IMG/VR virus record: IMGVR_UViG_3300031886_000047 | Coordinates: 1-23,079 of that record | Length of the DNA: 23,079 nt | Source of the DNA: a virus | Reading direction: 5' to 3' (one strand) | Shown: positions 1 through 8,164 of the stretch, piece by piece | Layout of the letters: each line of letters begins with the position of its first letter | Numbering within the stretch: the stretch's first letter is position 1 | Translations under genes and position numbers: made by a program | Notes under the pieces: generated by a model | What the model was told of the DNA's origin: nothing | The model's database searches: none | The model's input: the letters and a program-made list of their open reading frames with translations, nothing else

Positions 1-2
1 CC

Positions 3-275
3 GGCGCAGATGCACTATCGAGTCCGAGCTTGTCAAGAGAATGGTTGATCCTCCGACAGAATGCGTTGACTAACGCGGTCAATTTCACGGCAAACAACCC
101 CAATAGTGACTTAACGGTTGAGGCAGTGCTAGAAACTGCTGCGGAGTTCGTGGCTTGGACATCAGGAGACTCAGAAAAACTTGAGCTTGAGGAGGGTGGA
201 GCACAGGAGAAAGGTGAACCAACGGTTGCGGATTGGAAGGAGGCTGCTGTTGAACTTGTAAAAGCAGCTTCTTAA
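3..275 (+). CDS. Hypothetical protein, 5'-truncated by the window edge
   Basis: The reading frame is open from the first bases of the window to a TAA at 273-275, so the true start probably lies upstream. A TTG at 30 is the only start-like codon near the edge and has no convincing ribosome site. The visible C-terminal part (about 90 residues) opens with a helical, Trp/Arg-containing stretch (SREWLILRQNALTNAVNF), then a second helical part (EAVLETAAEFVAWTSGD) and an acidic linker, ending in a short Lys/Ala-rich helix. I do not recognise a named family. Small proteins with this RQ-A-V/ F-W pattern sit next to replication genes in marine podoviruses, and a DNA-binding accessory role is possible but unproven. 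It lies 15 bases upstream of the exonuclease gene in the same orientation, so it belongs to the early/replication operon. Confidence 0.6.
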   Translation, partial: GADALSSPSLSREWLILRQNALTNAVNFTANNPNSDLTVEAVLETAAEFVAWTSGDSEKLELEEGGAQEKGEPTVADWKEAAVELVKAAS

Positions 276-290
276 AAGGGAGTCAAGCTC

Positions 291-1133
291 GTGCCAGACA
301 CAATAGCTTTATTTGATGGTGATATTATCGCCTACCGTGCTGGCTTCGCCGCTGAGAAGCGGGTCTACTTTGATACACGTAACCCCCCAAAAGCGGGGGG
401 TTCTTCTTTTGGTACAAAAAAAGAAGCTTTGTTGGCGGTAGACAAGGAGCATTTGGACTATCAACGGAACTTGGAACCGCTGGAACACGCACTCCAAAAC
501 GCCAAGTCCCTGATCGACGGATCTTTAGAATATTTAAGGGAGGCGCGGAGCGTCCCTGTTAGTGACTACGTGACGTTTCTCTCGGGGAACGATCAAAAAC
601 CTAACTTCAGAATTAAAGTTGACCCTGAGTACAAGGCTAACCGTGACCCTAAGCACAAGCCTAGCCACCTTCCAGGTTTGATAGATTACTTAGTGGAACA
701 CCACGCGGGTTACCGCACACAAGGTTGCGAGGCGGACGATTTTTTCGGACACGCACAAACAGACGCTATTCAACAGGGTTTAGTGCCGGTGATAGTGTCT
801 ATTGACAAAGACTTGACACAACTAGCTGGATGGCATTACAACCTTGTCAAACAAGAGCTAATAGAGATTTCTAAGGAGGAGGCTACCTTAGTTTTTTGGC
901 GACAGATGTTAGAAGGGGACTCCGTAGACAACATCAAAGGGGTCGTTGGTATAGGGAAAGTCAAGTCCCGGCAATACATACCTAACAAGACAACCGACGA
1001 AGAAGCGAAGAAGATCGTTACAAAATATTATCAACGGGATCACGGAGATGTCTGGGAAAAGGAATACAACAAAAACTGCGACCTCCTTTGGATATGGCGT
1101 AAAATCCCAGACGAGTGTCCCCACAAAGTCTAG
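291..1133 (+). CDS. 5'-3' exonuclease, PIN/FEN type (T7 gp6-like)
   Basis: This is a structure-selective 5' nuclease of the PIN/FEN superfamily. In T7-like phages this enzyme (gp6) degrades host DNA and removes RNA primers. The metal-binding acidic residues are visible in order: D9 and D11 in LFDGD near the N-terminus, E147/D149/D150 in CEADD, D172/D174 in SIDKD, and D210/D213 in GDSVDN. The last is followed by a helix-hairpin-helix-like segment (VVGIGKVK) that would bind DNA. At 280 residues the length is normal for a phage member. Translation starts at GTG 291; AAAAGGG at 274-280 is a usable ribosome site. The 3' end overlaps the endonuclease gene by 86 bases. Residues 30-40 are encoded across a terminator-like hairpin (separate entry), in a region where family members are variable. 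The family call is confident; the specific biological role is inferred. Confidence 0.9.
   Translation: MPDTIALFDGDIIAYRAGFAAEKRVYFDTRNPPKAGGSSFGTKKEALLAVDKEHLDYQRNLEPLEHALQNAKSLIDGSLEYLREARSVPVSDYVTFLSGNDQKPNFRIKVDPEYKANRDPKHKPSHLPGLIDYLVEHHAGYRTQGCEADDFFGHAQTDAIQQGLVPVIVSIDKDLTQLAGWHYNLVKQELIEISKEEATLVFWRQMLEGDSVDNIKGVVGIGKVKSRQYIPNKTTDEEAKKIVTKYYQRDHGDVWEKEYNKNCDLLWIWRKIPDECPHKV
381..410 (+). terminator. Terminator-like hairpin inside the exonuclease gene
   Basis: A perfect 8-base stem, AACCCCCC (381-388) with GGGGGGTT (395-402), encloses a 6-base loop. It is followed immediately by CTTCTTTT (403-410), which is the architecture of a plus-strand intrinsic terminator. It lies wholly within codons 31-40 of the exonuclease. 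Ribosomes following the polymerase could mask it. It could otherwise attenuate the downstream operon or be a palindromic insertion tolerated in frame. The structure is certain from sequence; activity is not shown. Confidence 0.5.
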
Positions 1134-1554
1134 TATAAAACCGTATAGGTCTAGGTTTGAATTTAATATAGCTCTTTGGTTAGAGCAGTCTGGTGTCGCT
1201 TTTGAGTACGAACCAAAGAAGATTTCGTACTTGCACCCAGTACACCAAGGTACTTGCCTTTCTTGTGCGTCTTCGTATGTCGGTAGGCGCTCAGTGTATC
1301 TTCCCGATTTTTGGCTCCCTGAGCAAAAGCTTTGGATAGAGGCTAAGGGGAGATGGCCGGGGTCAGGCAGAACCAAGACGTTAGCTGTGTTGAGCAGTGA
1401 CAATGAACTTACGTTGGAAAATTTCAGGATGCTTTTCATGTATGACAATTGGCTTACGAAGAAACACCGCCAAACTTATACCGGATGGTGCCAAGCTCAG
1501 GGGATCATATGTGCAACAGGCGTTGAGCTTCCAAAGGAGTGGTTAAATACATAG
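1048..1554 (+). CDS. Endonuclease I, Holliday-junction resolvase (T7 gp3-like)
   Basis: Members of this family cut branched DNA and, in T7, help degrade host DNA and resolve replication intermediates as a domain-swapped dimer. The catalytic pattern of T7 endonuclease I is present: E38 in YRSRFE, D87 in LPDF, and E98/K100 in IEAKG. The GYG near the N-terminus and the C-terminal GIICATGVELPKEWL also resemble T7. Compared with T7 there is an insertion between the first and second catalytic elements (residues about 63-83) carrying a CxxC (C70, C73). The ATG at 1048 lies inside the exonuclease gene (86-base overlap) and no better start exists downstream before the conserved core. The two nucleases are thus translationally nested. 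The pairing of exonuclease with endonuclease supports a host-DNA breakdown and recombination role. Confidence 0.88.
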   Translation: MSGKRNTTKTATSFGYGVKSQTSVPTKSSIKPYRSRFEFNIALWLEQSGVAFEYEPKKISYLHPVHQGTCLSCASSYVGRRSVYLPDFWLPEQKLWIEAKGRWPGSGRTKTLAVLSSDNELTLENFRMLFMYDNWLTKKHRQTYTGWCQAQGIICATGVELPKEWLNT

Positions 1555-3096: not shown

Positions 3097-3208
3097 TGTT
3101 ATTGAGAGTGCTCACTATACGGTAACACGCTCCGGTAGAGAGCTAGACCAAGAGAATTTTAAGATTACTTACAACCGACTAAAGAAACTTTACGAGGAGC
3201 TTGGATGA
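3029..3208 (+). CDS. Small hypothetical protein, 59 aa
   Basis: The second half of this frame lies in sequence not used by another gene and encodes a plausible domain (VIESAHYTVTRSGRELDQEN, ending KITYNRLKKLYEELG). Its stop overlaps the ribonucleotide reductase start as ATGA, the same coupling seen elsewhere in this operon. The start is uncertain. ATG 3029 is inside the basic-protein gene and lacks a clear ribosome site; a GTG at 2960 overlaps the stop of the 63-aa gene but would duplicate 67 codons of another frame. No family is recognised. The Lys-rich N-terminus (MTGKKKKENVSATKK) is partly imposed by the overlapping basic gene. Confidence 0.55.
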   Translation: MTGKKKKENVSATKKNTLFLATSVIESAHYTVTRSGRELDQENFKITYNRLKKLYEELG

Positions 3209-5118
3209 ACCTGTATCAAGAGTATATACACAAGTCCAGATACGCCAGGTATCGAGAAGACTTAGGGCGTAGAGAAACTTGGGACGAAACTGTAGACAGG
3301 GTTGGGGAGTTTTGGGATGCTCGAATCCCTCAAAACGAAGTCCTAAGAACTGAGCTTAAATTAGCTTTAGAGGCTGTGCGAAGAATGGATGTCATGCCCT
3401 CTATGAGAGTTATGATGTCTGCAGGGAAAGCTTTAGAAGACCATAATGTAGCGGGGTACAACTGCGCCTATGTTCCGGTTGATGACCCGAAAGTATTTTC
3501 TGAAATTGTTTATGTATTAATGTGTGGTACAGGTGTGGGCTTTTCTGTAGAACGGGCTTACGTCAATAAGCTACCCTCGCTCCCTGACGAGTTGAGCACT
3601 ACTGACACTGTTATTACCGTAAGGGACAGCAAACTAGGGTGGGCGTCTGCCTACAGGGAGTTAGTATCCCTTTTGTACGGGGGTTTAGTACCCTCTTGGG
3701 ACTTAGGAAAAATTAGACCTGCAGGGAGCAGACTTAGAACCTTTGGTGGCAGAGCTTCTGGTCCCGCACCGTTAAATGATTTATTCCAGTACACCGTAGA
3801 GACTTTCAAAAACGCTTCTGGCAGACAACTTACAACGCTAGAGGTGCATGATGTTGTGTGCAAAATTGCCGACATAGTTGTTGTTGGAGGCGTCCGACGA
3901 AGCGCCCTCATCTCACTCAGCAATTTATCTGATGACCGCCTGCGAGGTGCAAAAGCAGGGCAGTGGTGGAACCCTATAGAGGAAGGTGGAGCACCGCAAC
4001 GACGGTTGGCAAATAACTCTGTTGCTTATACCGGCAAACCGGATGTGGATAGCTTTATGTCAGAGATGGTTTCGCTTTACAGAGACAAAAACGGAGAGCG
4101 TGGGATCTTCAATAGAGAAGCGGCCAGAACAAAGTATGTAGAGCACCGACGAGAAGAGAACCAAGAGTGGGGTTGTAACCCCTGTTCCGAGATCCTCCTA
4201 AGACCAGCACAGTTCTGTAACCTCACTGAGGTCGTTGTCAGGCCAAAAGACACTTGGAAAGACCTACTGGATAAGATTAAGTATGCGACCCTTATAGGCA
4301 CTCTCCAAGCCTCTCTCACTGACTTCAAATTTATCTCTAAGCGGTGGAAGACTAACTGTGAAGAAGAGGCGCTACTTGGAGTATCATTAACGGGTTGTTG
4401 CGACCACCCCCTTCTTAGTGGGCATAGGTTATCAACCGTTAAAGAAGATGAACTCCTCAAAGGGCTGGAGACATTAAAAGAGACTTCGATTGAATACAAC
4501 GAACTTTTCGCCGAAGCTTTGGGTATAAACAAAGCAGCCGCTATTACCTGCGTCAAACCAAGCGGTACGGTGTCACAACTTTGTGATACTGCTTCTGGCA
4601 TACACCCGCGCTTCTCCCCCTACTATGTGCGGAGAGTGCGAAGTGATACAAAAGATCCTTTAACAGCGTTTTTAAAAGATGCCGGAGTGCCTTGGGAAAA
4701 CGACCAGTTGAACAGCGAGAACGTGGTCTTTTCTTTCCCTACTAAATCTCCTAGTAAAAGCGTTTGTGTTAACGATGTTGGTGCGGTAGATCAGCTTGAG
4801 ACTTGGCAGCTATACAATGATTACTACACTGAACACAAACCTTCTGTCACTATTTATTACGGAGAAGATGAGTTTTTGAATGTGTGTAACTACGTGTGGG
4901 ATAACTTCAATACTATGAGCGGAATAGCTTTCCTACCCAAGAGTGGACACACATATCAGCAAGCACCTTATGAAGAGATAAGTAAGGAGATGTACCTCTC
5001 GTTAAGTGAGGCTATGCCAACGAAGCTTGATTGGGATAAATTAGTTGACTACGAGAATGAAGACAACACCTCTGTTCAACCTGAACTAGCCTGCAGTGCT
5101 AATGGCTGCGAGTTGTAA
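3205..5118 (+). CDS. nrdJ: Class II (adenosylcobalamin-dependent) ribonucleotide reductase
   Basis: This enzyme reduces ribonucleoside triphosphates to deoxynucleotides using a radical generated from coenzyme B12, feeding phage DNA synthesis. The pattern matches the monomeric Lactobacillus-type enzyme. C87 (YNCAY) and C338 (QFCNL) form the active-site disulfide pair. N325-C327-E329 (NPCSEI) contains the radical-bearing Cys, exactly 11 residues before C338 as in that family. C630 and C635 form the C-terminal redox shuttle (ACSANGCEL). LMCGTGVGFSVER and GGVRRSALISLSN are typical core blocks. At 637 residues it is shorter than cellular homologues, as usual for phages. GAGGAG at 3194-3199 supports the ATG, which overlaps the previous stop. 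No B subunit gene is needed or present. The terminal 13 codons recur at 5922-5963, so this 3' end may have been replaced (see findings). Confidence 0.93.
   Translation: MNLYQEYIHKSRYARYREDLGRRETWDETVDRVGEFWDARIPQNEVLRTELKLALEAVRRMDVMPSMRVMMSAGKALEDHNVAGYNCAYVPVDDPKVFSEIVYVLMCGTGVGFSVERAYVNKLPSLPDELSTTDTVITVRDSKLGWASAYRELVSLLYGGLVPSWDLGKIRPAGSRLRTFGGRASGPAPLNDLFQYTVETFKNASGRQLTTLEVHDVVCKIADIVVVGGVRRSALISLSNLSDDRLRGAKAGQWWNPIEEGGAPQRRLANNSVAYTGKPDVDSFMSEMVSLYRDKNGERGIFNREAARTKYVEHRREENQEWGCNPCSEILLRPAQFCNLTEVVVRPKDTWKDLLDKIKYATLIGTLQASLTDFKFISKRWKTNCEEEALLGVSLTGCCDHPLLSGHRLSTVKEDELLKGLETLKETSIEYNELFAEALGINKAAAITCVKPSGTVSQLCDTASGIHPRFSPYYVRRVRSDTKDPLTAFLKDAGVPWENDQLNSENVVFSFPTKSPSKSVCVNDVGAVDQLETWQLYNDYYTEHKPSVTIYYGEDEFLNVCNYVWDNFNTMSGIAFLPKSGHTYQQAPYEEISKEMYLSLSEAMPTKLDWDKLVDYENEDNTSVQPELACSANGCEL
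5105..5118 (+). repeat. 14-bp direct repeat, copy 1 (3' end of nrdJ)
   Basis: GCTGCGAGTTGTAA at the end of nrdJ is identical to 5950-5963. The similarity extends upstream to 5077 (30 of 42 bases equal by my count), with most differences at third codon positions. Together the two copies bracket the PAPS-reductase-family gene. Confidence 0.85.
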
Positions 5119-5122
5119 CAAT

Positions 5123-5806
5123 ATGAAACAATTAAAATTTAGTCTTAACCAAAGAACTTTTATTCATGTTCCCACTGATAGGGAGATTATTGTTCCTGTA
5201 TCTGGAGGAAAAGATAGCACTGCTACTCTCATACTCGCTTTACAAAATTTTGATAAGAAAAAAATAATCCCTTTACATTGTAATACAGGGTGGGATAACC
5301 CTAAAACTTATGAGTATTTGGAATATATGGAAAAACTTTCTGGGATCAAAATTCATCATACTTTTTTCAAAGAAGCTCCGAGTATGCCTGATTTAGTAAG
5401 AAGGGCAGGGAAGTTTCCTAACAGAAGAATGAGGTTCTGTACTGCTAGATATAAGGAAAGAGCAACAGGGCGCTGGTATAACGAAAATGGATTTTCTGAG
5501 GACAGGAAAGGCCAAGTGTGGTTAGGTATTAGGTCAGATGAATCTTGGCAACGGAGAAAAAAATATGGACAGCTAGACTCGGCGGATATACATGATTATA
5601 GGGAAATTTTTTCTTGGGTTCCGAAAAAAACAAATAGGAATATAAATGTAAGGTTTCCAATTATAGATTGGAGTACAGAGGATTGTTTTCAACACATTAA
5701 AAATTACGGGTGGAGCCACAATCCTTTGTACGATGAAGGCAGTAATAGGGTGGGGTGTTATCCCTGTTTGTTATCTTCCAAAAAAAATACAAGCCAAAGA
5801 GTTTAG
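5123..5806 (+). CDS. PAPS reductase-family PP-loop protein, main part (frameshifted)
   Basis: This is an adenine-nucleotide alpha-hydrolase-type protein of the phosphoadenosine phosphosulfate reductase family. The PP-loop motif SGGKDST is at residues 27-33, followed by LHCNTGWDNPKT, a RFCTARYK block with C106, and C212/C215 (GCYPC). Phage relatives have a second Cys pair near the C-terminus, which here lies in another frame (next entry). The real substrate is unknown; such phage proteins are variously linked to sulfur transfer or nucleic-acid modification. ATG 5123 is five bases after the nrdJ stop, with no ribosome site, so reinitiation after nrdJ is likely; a GTG at 5096 is inside nrdJ. The gene is much more AT-rich than nrdJ: 17 G/C in 5221-5280 against 33 in 4141-4200. 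As read it ends with 6 aberrant codons after an A8 run (5780-5787). Confidence 0.8.
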   Translation: MKQLKFSLNQRTFIHVPTDREIIVPVSGGKDSTATLILALQNFDKKKIIPLHCNTGWDNPKTYEYLEYMEKLSGIKIHHTFFKEAPSMPDLVRRAGKFPNRRMRFCTARYKERATGRWYNENGFSEDRKGQVWLGIRSDESWQRRKKYGQLDSADIHDYREIFSWVPKKTNRNINVRFPIIDWSTEDCFQHIKNYGWSHNPLYDEGSNRVGCYPCLLSSKKNTSQRV

Positions 5807-5921: not shown

Positions 5922-5963
5922 CAGACGGAATTGACTTGTAGCGCAGATAGCTGCGAGTTGTAA
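5922..5963 (+). pseudogene. Orphan second copy of the nrdJ redox tail
   Basis: Starting at the base after the TAG of the PAPS-type gene, 13 codons plus TAA encode QTELTCSADSCEL. The nrdJ terminus encodes QPELACSANGCEL. Nine of 13 residues are identical, including both redox cysteines and the final CEL, while many wobble bases differ. The fragment has no start codon or ribosome site. It is best read as the original nrdJ 3' end, separated from its gene by a cassette that brought its own tail. It is in the same frame as the displaced PAPS-type C-terminus, separated only by the TAG. Confidence 0.85.
5950..5963 (+). repeat. 14-bp direct repeat, copy 2
   Basis: This is identical to 5105-5118 (GCTGCGAGTTGTAA). 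Recombination between the two copies would delete 845 bases and leave a single intact nrdJ terminus next to the convergent terminator, which is the presumed ancestral arrangement. Confidence 0.85.
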
Positions 5964-5977
5964 TCTTTCGAGATGTC

Positions 5978-6003
5978 ACAAAAGACACCCGCCGAAGCGG
6001 GTG
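5978..6003 (-). terminator. Intrinsic terminator ending the late (minus-strand) operon
   Basis: Read on the minus strand there is a 7-base stem CACCCGC / GCGGGTG closed by a UUCG tetraloop, followed by TCTTTTGTG. On the plus strand the stem is followed by AATGAGAGG, with no U-run, so it chiefly stops leftward transcription. It occupies the 66-base gap between the two converging gene blocks. Confidence 0.8.
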
Positions 6004-6636: not shown

Positions 6637-6960
6637 TTAAATAGCGAAAGACGAACCACAACCACATGTCGTAGTTACATTCGGATTACTAATTTCAAAA
6701 TGACAGGATTCAAAGCTCTCCGTGTAATCTATTTTAGCCCCGTGTAAGTACTGAGCACTGATAGGGTCCACAACGAGCTTGACTCCCTGATTCTCAACTA
6801 TCAAATCCCCTTCCTCTTCCTTTTCGTCCAAAGTAAATCCATATTTAAATCCAGAACACCCCCCACCTGATACAAGAACACGAAGATTTAACTTAGCCTC
6901 GCCCTCTTCTTTTAAGACCTCTTGTACTTTTAAAGCTGCAGTGTCGGTGAAAATAATCAT
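6637..6960 (-). CDS. erpA: ErpA/IscA-type iron-sulfur cluster carrier protein
   Basis: This is an A-type carrier that accepts Fe-S clusters from the Isc or Suf machinery and delivers them to apo-proteins. It is full length (107 residues) with all three cluster-binding cysteines: C35 in SGGGCSGF, and C99 and C101 in CGCGSSF at the C-terminus. Close similarity to Escherichia coli ErpA runs through the core ([29 protein letters not shown]). It is probably functional and acts in the host cytoplasm as an auxiliary metabolic gene. It begins one base after the stop of the 58-aa gene upstream (TAACATG) with no strong ribosome site, so translation is probably coupled. Position within the late operon implies expression late in infection. 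Confidence 0.93.
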
Positions 6961-7289: not shown

Positions 7290-7631
7290 CTAAATAGAAC
7301 AGTGAAAATATGCTAAACCTATTACGGCATTATTCCTGTGACCCTTTGCTTCTAGTTGTGCGATAATTCTCTGGGCTTCTATTATCTCTGATTTAAGAAT
7401 ATTGTATTGGGCTTGTGTTATTATACCAGCCCTTAACTTAGTACCTAAAAAAACTCTCCAACGTCCGATTAAAAGCTCTCGGTTCTTTGCAGGAACCAGT
7501 ACCTCTATGAACTCCAGTACGTGGGTGCAGGCCGTAGGTACAGAGGACTCAACAGCAACGGCCTCAAAAGACAACGACAACAGAAGTAGCAAAAACACCC
7601 TTAATCGGCGTGAGCAACTGCATACCACCAT
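7290..7631 (-). CDS. Exported hypothetical protein, about 113 aa
   Basis: The N-terminus carries two arginines followed by a long Leu run (RRLRVFLLLLLSLSFEAVA), a typical signal peptide with a likely cleavage after AVA. The mature part is about 80 residues, mostly helical, with charged segments (AQYNILKSEIIEAQRIIAQ) and cysteines near both ends. I recognise no enzyme motif, so I cannot call it an endolysin. ATG 7631 overlaps the end of the oxygenase gene by 31 bases; an in-frame TTG at 7640 and a GTG just before the Leu run are alternative starts. A periplasmic role near the lysis genes is plausible from position only. Confidence 0.6.
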   Translation of the reverse strand: MVVCSCSRRLRVFLLLLLSLSFEAVAVESSVPTACTHVLEFIEVLVPAKNRELLIGRWRVFLGTKLRAGIITQAQYNILKSEIIEAQRIIAQLEAKGHRNNAVIGLAYFHCSI

Positions 7632-8164
7632 CCCGTACAAATGTATTTAACCCCTTGTAATGGCGGGTTGCCCCGGTGTTGCCAAGGCCAAGCTGCAGGC
7701 CATATAGCTAATCTACCGGCTTTGGGTTGTACCCGCATAGCTTGATTTAAGAACTCCGTTTCTCCACCCTCTGTTATGTCATTCATGTACAAAGACCAAA
7801 CTAACCGTCTGGCTGATGCTTGAGCCTTGTTCATCTGCTCACTGTGCCAAACGTGATAGCCGCCTCCGGGTTCTGTTCTTTGCATCTTAACGTTATAACC
7901 TTGGAGGTGTAGCTCCACTCCCCCAGGAAATAAAGACAAGTAATCGTCAAGATATGGTTGAAGAAGGCTGTGGATCACCCCTGCTAGGTGCGGGGAATGG
8001 TCTTCAATCATTATTGAACTGTCTTTTCTTCCAAGGGACGATTGAAATTGACTTTCGCCACTAAAAGAAGACACTTCACTAATCTCGTCAAACCTTTTTA
8101 TTATTTTCTGTAGTGTTTCCTCATCTATAACATCATCATAAGCTCTTATAAAAGAGTCCATCAT
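7601..8164 (-). CDS. 2-oxoglutarate/Fe(II)-dependent oxygenase, prolyl-4-hydroxylase type
   Basis: This is a cupin-fold dioxygenase that would use 2-oxoglutarate, O2 and Fe(II) to hydroxylate a protein or other substrate. The metal triad is H107-x-E109 (YHVWHSEQ) and H163 (WQHRGNPP), with K173 (KYICTGWW) as the likely 2-oxoglutarate anchor. The block YMNDITEGGETEF is diagnostic of phage and bacterial members. The first motif is HxE in place of the more common HxD, which I have seen in marine phage relatives. At 187 residues it is a single catalytic domain. GAGAGG lies upstream of ATG 8164. It sits between the large ejection protein gene and the lysis/accessory genes. The substrate cannot be told from sequence; virion or host proteins are possible. 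Confidence 0.86.
   Translation of the reverse strand: MMDSFIRAYDDVIDEETLQKIIKRFDEISEVSSFSGESQFQSSLGRKDSSIMIEDHSPHLAGVIHSLLQPYLDDYLSLFPGGVELHLQGYNVKMQRTEPGGGYHVWHSEQMNKAQASARRLVWSLYMNDITEGGETEFLNQAMRVQPKAGRLAIWPAAWPWQHRGNPPLQGVKYICTGWWYAVAHAD

Follow-up and report, generated by a model that had tools for sequence, protein, structure and literature searches.

A covarying RNA hairpin inside the exonuclease gene of a DNA phage family and its possible role at a cistron junction

The window analyzed here is a virus record of 23,079 bases. Its left part carries a series of plus-strand genes, among which the gene for a 5'-3' exonuclease contains a compact inverted repeat close to its start (Table 1). 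The exonuclease is assigned to PHROG 107, a family to which gp6 of phage T7 belongs. In the AlphaFold model of the protein (mean pLDDT 92) the residues encoded by the repeat form a loop between a strand and a helix, a placement which fits the tolerance of this segment to changes in length described below. The ribonucleotide reductase gene is directly followed on its 3' side by a gene for a phosphoadenosine phosphosulfate reductase-like protein (5096-5806, by PHROG/Pfam). Two products encoded among the minus-strand genes were recognized by eye only, namely, an A-type iron-sulfur carrier-like protein (6637-6960) and a 2-oxoglutarate oxygenase-like protein (7601-8164). The junction between the plus-strand replication genes and the minus-strand genes bears terminator-like hairpins on both strands (5932-6003).

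Table 1. Genes and hairpin elements in the left part of the window (coordinates are those of the window)
Feature	Coordinates	Strand	Basis or remark
OB-fold (probable ssDNA-binding) gene, 3' part	1..275	+	Cut at the left edge of the window; ORF 3-275, open on the 5' side
5'-3' exonuclease gene, T7 gp6 type, host of the hairpin	291..1133	+	GTG start; PHROG 107, E 8.9e-52; Pfam 5_3_exonuc_N
Hairpin, left arm AACCCCCC	381..388	+	Sequence and fold
Hairpin, loop AAAAGC	389..394	+	Sequence and fold; codes part of the exonuclease loop between strand 22-28 and helix 43-49
Hairpin, right arm GGGGGGTT	395..402	+	Sequence and fold
T-rich tail CTTCTTTT	403..410	+	Ser-Ser-Phe codons; T-rich in only part of the family
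Endonuclease I gene, next downstream of the exonuclease	1048..1554	+	Pfam Phage_endo_I, E 8.2e-15
Ribonucleotide reductase gene	3205..5118	+	PHROG 367, E 3.5e-170

A sequence-only reading of this DNA had described a hairpin of 8 bp with a loop of 6 nt and a T-rich tail at 381-410, about 90 bases into the exonuclease gene and encoding NPPKAGGSSF, and this description is exact in both sequence and fold. Folding yields a single hairpin at 381-402 with a predicted energy of -15.7 kcal/mol, which starts 90 nt into the exonuclease ORF. Taken alone, it is not an exceptional structure. The terminator scan returned 24 terminator-like sites in the window, the hairpin being the second in the list, against a mean of 16.1 (sd 3.7) in shuffled sequences. 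Dinucleotide shuffles gave an MFE z of -1.73, with 11 of 200 shuffles equally stable, and the comparison with synonymous codons gave p = 0.087 under the codon usage of the gene and 0.054 under uniform usage. The latter result is marginal because the CCN codons of proline and the GGN codons of glycine are naturally complementary. The hairpin is real, then, but marginal by itself, and its significance comes from homologues. No Rfam family matched the window at the gathering-score threshold over its whole length. An alternative fold of 8 bp at 403-426, CTTCTTTT-ggtacaaa-AAAAGAAG, in which the U-tract would be hidden, is listed for the window and for its near-identical relative L001 only.

Homologues were collected by protein and alignment scans of viral contigs, by two further scans and from named phage loci. 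The collection comprises 66 distinct exonucleases in which the start motif is present, 40 of which, by our count, form the clade that possesses the hairpin-coding protein loop. The hairpin scores at least 19 in 36 of these 40 sequences and lies 64-72 nt from the DGD motif; a 37th scores 18.0, and the in-gene hairpins of L004, L019 and L024 are weak. Among the 36, L002 and L005 were scored in an alternative register, and their native 8-bp hairpins fold too. The encoded peptides vary (NPPKAGG, LPRNEGE, LPERGA, HPPSSPG, DPEG), with in-frame changes of length that include deletions, and the stems are built from differing bases: ACUCCUCCC/GGGGGGAGU, CUCCCUC/GAGGGAG, CACCCCCC/GGGGGGUG and GGCUCCC/GGGAGCC. 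Even in the near relatives L010 and L020, where R and A are replaced by S and D, a G-C pair has become a U-A pair. The most divergent example is L083, whose exonuclease is 40% identical; at the same place it carries AGGTGGGGC-gaggag-GCCCCACCT, a hairpin of unrelated sequence with the arms swapped, the G-rich arm coming first. Neither the loop nor the stem sequence is conserved among the hairpins of the clade. The suggested comparison of sequence and length across homologous exonucleases thus shows the hairpin kept through in-frame length and residue changes, with compensating base changes in the stem. The earlier view that selection normally removes such structures from coding DNA does not hold at this site, and the pattern named as refuting a role, homologues with the same residues and synonymous bases that break the stem, is the opposite of what is seen: residues change and the stem stays.

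The hairpin is absent from L061, which lies outside the clade, and nine named phage records (L118-L126) are without this loop, the hairpins near their exonuclease starts sharing no common place. We found no isolate of the hairpin clade. Megablast of the window against 50,697 phage records returned no close relative, and a scan of genome contigs yielded no relative. Further viral scans with the exonucleases of L047 and L036 recovered already known contigs only, and that with the exonuclease of L061 added one new contig with the same sequence as L061. Literature searches in a largely open-access collection listed no report of this hairpin.

Selection on the RNA was examined with several nulls. 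When each lineage was recoded synonymously with the codon usage of the gene, p was at most 0.007 in 9 of 17 lineages; the window (0.087), L002, L003, L004, L019 and L024 fall short of 0.05. A sliding synonymous null of 45 nt, applied to 17 of 26 genes picked by hand (the 26 being 25 of the 40 distinct clade sequences plus L083), gave mean z values of -2.78, -3.12 and -2.49 at nt 72, 81 and 90, with z below -2 in 12, 12 and 11 of the 17 lineages, respectively; since the lineages share ancestry, these z-scores are not fully independent. Over the rest of the exonuclease gene the mean z ranged from -0.73 to +0.71, apart from an overlapping edge window at -1.08. The lowest mean z in neighboring genes was -0.86 for the OB-fold gene (the 11 sequences that passed our motif filter), -1.10 for the polymerase (14 sequences) and -1.19 for the phosphoesterase (17 sequences); endonuclease I was represented by only six sequences and was kept out of the averages. 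Single genes often reach z of -3 to -4.8 somewhere by chance, and for this reason hairpins in other exonuclease subfamilies (L097, z -6.5; L065, -4.7; L072, -3.8) were not counted.

Two of these uncounted structures may be recorded in their own right. In the subfamily of L097 and its relatives (L089-L103), AGTCAGAAAGTGACG-aatac-CGTTGCTTTTTGACT (L097 3148-3182) forms 13-15 bp about 120 nt into the gene, again 3' of a small upstream gene that is OB-like by eye. In L072, a 42%-identical relative, the start of the exonuclease gene contains a perfect 8-bp inverted repeat, AGAGGGTC-tatc-GACCCTCT (4050-4069), whose surroundings fold at -22.2 kcal/mol and lack a U-tail.

Pairing between the arms was evaluated with stem and loop registers set by eye, as was done for the strand, tail, promoter-set and distance analyses. 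Across 18 lineages, the left arms pair with their own right arms better than in all 20,000 cross-lineage shuffles (135 versus at most 124), and the result persists in 15 lineages without L083 (114 of 120 versus at most 108). Pairing holds for 94.9% of the cells in an alignment of 15 sequences, falling to 69-74% when the partner is slid by one column, and the covariation score is 0.150 versus 0.076, a value reached in none of 500 shuffles. Pairs with double changes number two in the same alignment, which is unexceptional, since 203 of 500 shuffles reach as many. The hairpin thereby combines, on the evidence of these alignments, the two properties that mark a selected RNA structure within coding sequence, namely, stability beyond synonymous choice and covariation. 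It is well supported by these comparisons that the RNA fold has been selected, beyond being merely tolerated, and at the level of comparative analysis the coding strand is shown to be under selection for a hairpin of 6-12 bp at about 90 nt from the start of the exonuclease gene.

A palindrome could also act as DNA, as a cruciform or a single-strand hairpin in replication, recombination or packaging. The location among replication genes agrees with such a role, as does the fact that both strands can fold. However, the coding strand gives the more stable fold in 17 of 21 rows, 6 of 21 rows have G-U pairs within the first eight positions, and A-C oppositions are present in four rows, all with weaker hairpins (L003, L004, L019, L024). 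Moreover, a covariance model of the hairpin matched only this site in 41 loci, the records being fragments; it found 17 sources on the plus strand and missed the rows with other stem sequences. We consider a DNA-level element improbable. The exact core likewise occurs once in the 23-kb record, and both results speak against a dispersed palindromic repeat. The proposal that the gene had captured a palindromic element is likewise not supported for a recent event, as the hairpin occupies the same place family-wide.

Template switching as a source of stems is a serious rival to selection. According to PMC8794818, the process is able to create and maintain perfect stems, so that replication might keep perfecting an inverted repeat in a tolerant, length-variable protein loop without any function. 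Yet the position is fixed across the family, G-U pairs are present, and the three neighboring genes contain no comparable site. A purely mutational by-product therefore appears quite improbable to us.

We then considered the T-rich tail. Of 26 rows, 12 have the tail, 11 have the hairpin without it and three are weak, and the tail label requires four changes on the tree. Compared with the expectation conditioned on the peptide, 17 of 19 lineages show nothing unusual in the tail, and two fall below 0.05. Ten Ser-Phe lineages together have a weak excess of T (summed value 52 versus 42.7, sd 3.0, p 0.0016). The U-tail was thus mostly rejected as a selected feature, being largely implied by the Ser-Phe codons, and it is the hairpin, not the tail, that is kept. 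This bears on the reading of the site as a plain intrinsic terminator and nothing more. GC stems with T-rich tails in the window, L002, L007, L009, L012 and L083 have the corresponding shape, and the summed T excess points the same way, but the hairpin is retained without a U-tail in 11 of 26 rows, and we consider this explanation quite improbable. The label of textbook terminator given to the site is apt for the GC stem-loop on the transcript strand and not for the U-tract, which the family does not keep.

In the sisters L019 and L024, where the in-gene hairpin is eroded, the enlarged intergenic gap contains U-tailed hairpins of -23.4 and -24.0 kcal/mol; as the two are sisters, the relocation is possibly a single event. 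No obvious substitute hairpin or terminator was seen in the gap of L004 or L061. Separately, in L033 (3363), L045 (3367) and L053 (3369), whose exonuclease hairpins are without a U-tail, a terminator-like hairpin followed by a T-rich tail is located close to where the polymerase ORF ends, immediately 5' of the promoter of the OB-fold gene.

The gene directly 5' of the exonuclease encodes 161-195 aa. The two genes are separated by 15 nt in the window and overlap or lie a short distance apart in most relatives. The gene is complete (166 aa), together with its promoter, in L001, which shares 99.7% identity with the window along 3,479 bases. The part within the window matches PHROG 993 (E 4.8e-4), and 20 of 21 members of the gene family match PHROG 18140, which is annotated without function. 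For a homologue, AlphaFold models an OB fold at the N terminus (mean pLDDT 82). Foldseek of this model against the PDB gave nothing at E<=0.001, and VIA-align Z scores were 8.7 for RecO, 8.5 for the Rim1 SSB and 8.0 for PriB and SsbB. Judged by fold and gene order, the product is probably an ssDNA-binding protein.

A putative promoter sits 3' of the C-terminal ORF of the polymerase and 5' of the OB-fold gene. Most contigs have TTGACA-like and TATAAT-like boxes there, 16-17 nt apart and often with an extended -10. The sigma70-like score summed over 22 gaps was 240, against a null mean of 183.7 and a maximum of 198 in 20,000 draws; individually, the match has p<0.05 in 15 of the 22 gaps and is not significant in seven. 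The extended -10 by itself gives a Fisher p of 0.0015, and it is the two-hexamer test, not this value, on which the promoter claim rests. A search for a T7-type RNA polymerase in 11 contigs gave no matches, but its control gave no signal either, so that the result carries no weight. From the stop codon of the OB-fold gene to the start of the hairpin the distance is 86-131 nt (median 94, n=20 junctions), and 105 nt in the window.

A comparable arrangement is found in the gal operon of Escherichia coli. As described in PMC9239205, the 3' end of galE mRNA lies inside galT at the E-hairpin, which has seven G-C pairs and one G-U pair and is located about 100 nt past the galE stop. The hairpin spans 1142-1161 and termination occurs at 1183, stated to be 143 nt from the stop; by our arithmetic on these figures, the stop-to-hairpin distance is about 101 nt. 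The E-hairpin protects the 3' end and is proposed there to prolong a pause at a site of Rho-dependent termination, which occurs when translation of galT fails to start. Set against the gal account, the phage hairpin is likewise GC-rich, of about 8 bp, at the start of the next gene and behind an intercistronic gap of only a few nt, and its spacing after the upstream stop is similar (105 nt in the window and 86-131 in the 20 junctions versus about 101). It differs in its conservation and covariation across a divergent family, and in that some members add a U-tail. The likeness is one of anatomy, the phage case being known from sequence comparison. Four observations (the narrow stop-to-hairpin range, the promoter, the substitutes in the gap and a U-tail that can be dispensed with) agree better with a 3'-end element at a cistron junction than with a plain terminator or with a site acting on exonuclease translation. 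We give about an even chance to the interpretation that the hairpin is a 3'-end, pause or leaky-termination element of the upstream mRNA that lies within the following gene in the manner of the gal E-hairpin. The hairpin probably marks where many messages of the OB-fold gene end.

The main competitor, possible but in our judgment doubtful, is that the hairpin is a cis-element of the exonuclease's own mRNA, which would slow ribosomes, be cut by an RNase or be bound by a phage protein such as the structure-specific nuclease or the OB-fold protein, thus controlling exonuclease synthesis or mRNA decay with no part in ending the upstream transcript. The main-clade hairpin is always within the exonuclease gene and its U-tails are dispensable, as this explanation would have it, and branched or hairpin nucleic acids are substrates of such 5'-3' exonucleases, which also counts for it. 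On the other hand, the unconserved loops and stems make a sequence-specific protein site unlikely, and the replacement hairpins of L019 and L024 are U-tailed and 5' of the gene start.

For the cistron-junction element, we infer effects on pausing, termination, 3'-end protection and the ratio of the proteins, which could arise as follows. The sigma70-like promoter would give rise to mRNA for the SSB-like OB-fold protein. If translation of the exonuclease started late after the upstream stop codon, the hairpin would form behind RNA polymerase and stabilize a pause. Where a U-tail follows, intrinsic termination could ensue; where it is missing, termination might be Rho-dependent, with the hairpin protecting the trimmed 3' end. 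A prompt ribosome on the exonuclease gene would melt the hairpin and let the polymerase proceed into the exonuclease, the endonuclease and the genes beyond. As an outcome, the ssDNA-binding protein, needed in stoichiometric amounts, would be served by abundant mRNA, and the catalytic nucleases by less. We propose that two circumstances placed the element inside the exonuclease gene: the space between the genes amounts to only a few nt, and the stretch codes for a loop tolerant of length changes. The sequence-only reading, without the upstream gene in view, had suggested an attenuator for a downstream operon running from the nuclease to nrdJ. The hairpin may plausibly influence how the nuclease genes are expressed, but the position about 100 nt behind the OB-fold stop codon points to the 3' end of the upstream mRNA rather than to an attenuator only. 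A bolder version is unlikely in our view. In it, a single dual-coding hairpin would serve as a switch throughout the phage family: by registering whether translation of the exonuclease has begun, it would determine how much ssDNA-binding protein is made relative to the replication nucleases, and it might be sensed or cut, as feedback, by the phage's structure-specific exonuclease or the OB-fold protein.

It is from RNA viruses that covarying RNA structures within protein genes are best known. The present hairpin is a clear comparative case in the coding sequence of tailed DNA phages. Its parts are ordinary; its maintenance as a covarying structure across a DNA phage family is unusual. It shares with intrinsic terminators the stable GC stem, the short loop and, in about half of the family, the T-rich tail; unlike them, it lies inside a gene that must be read through, its tail is not conserved and it is known from sequence. 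RNA 3' ends within coding sequences, some with intrinsic-terminator scores, are reported for E. coli in PMC7815308, where they were mapped by experiment in a bacterium, in contrast to the comparative evidence of the phage case. At this site, it is apparently the protein that yields to the RNA. Should the proposed mechanism hold, phages without intergenic room would divide a single operon into parts of high and of low output, and the formation of 3' ends at cistron junctions, known from gal, would become a testable feature of phage operons.
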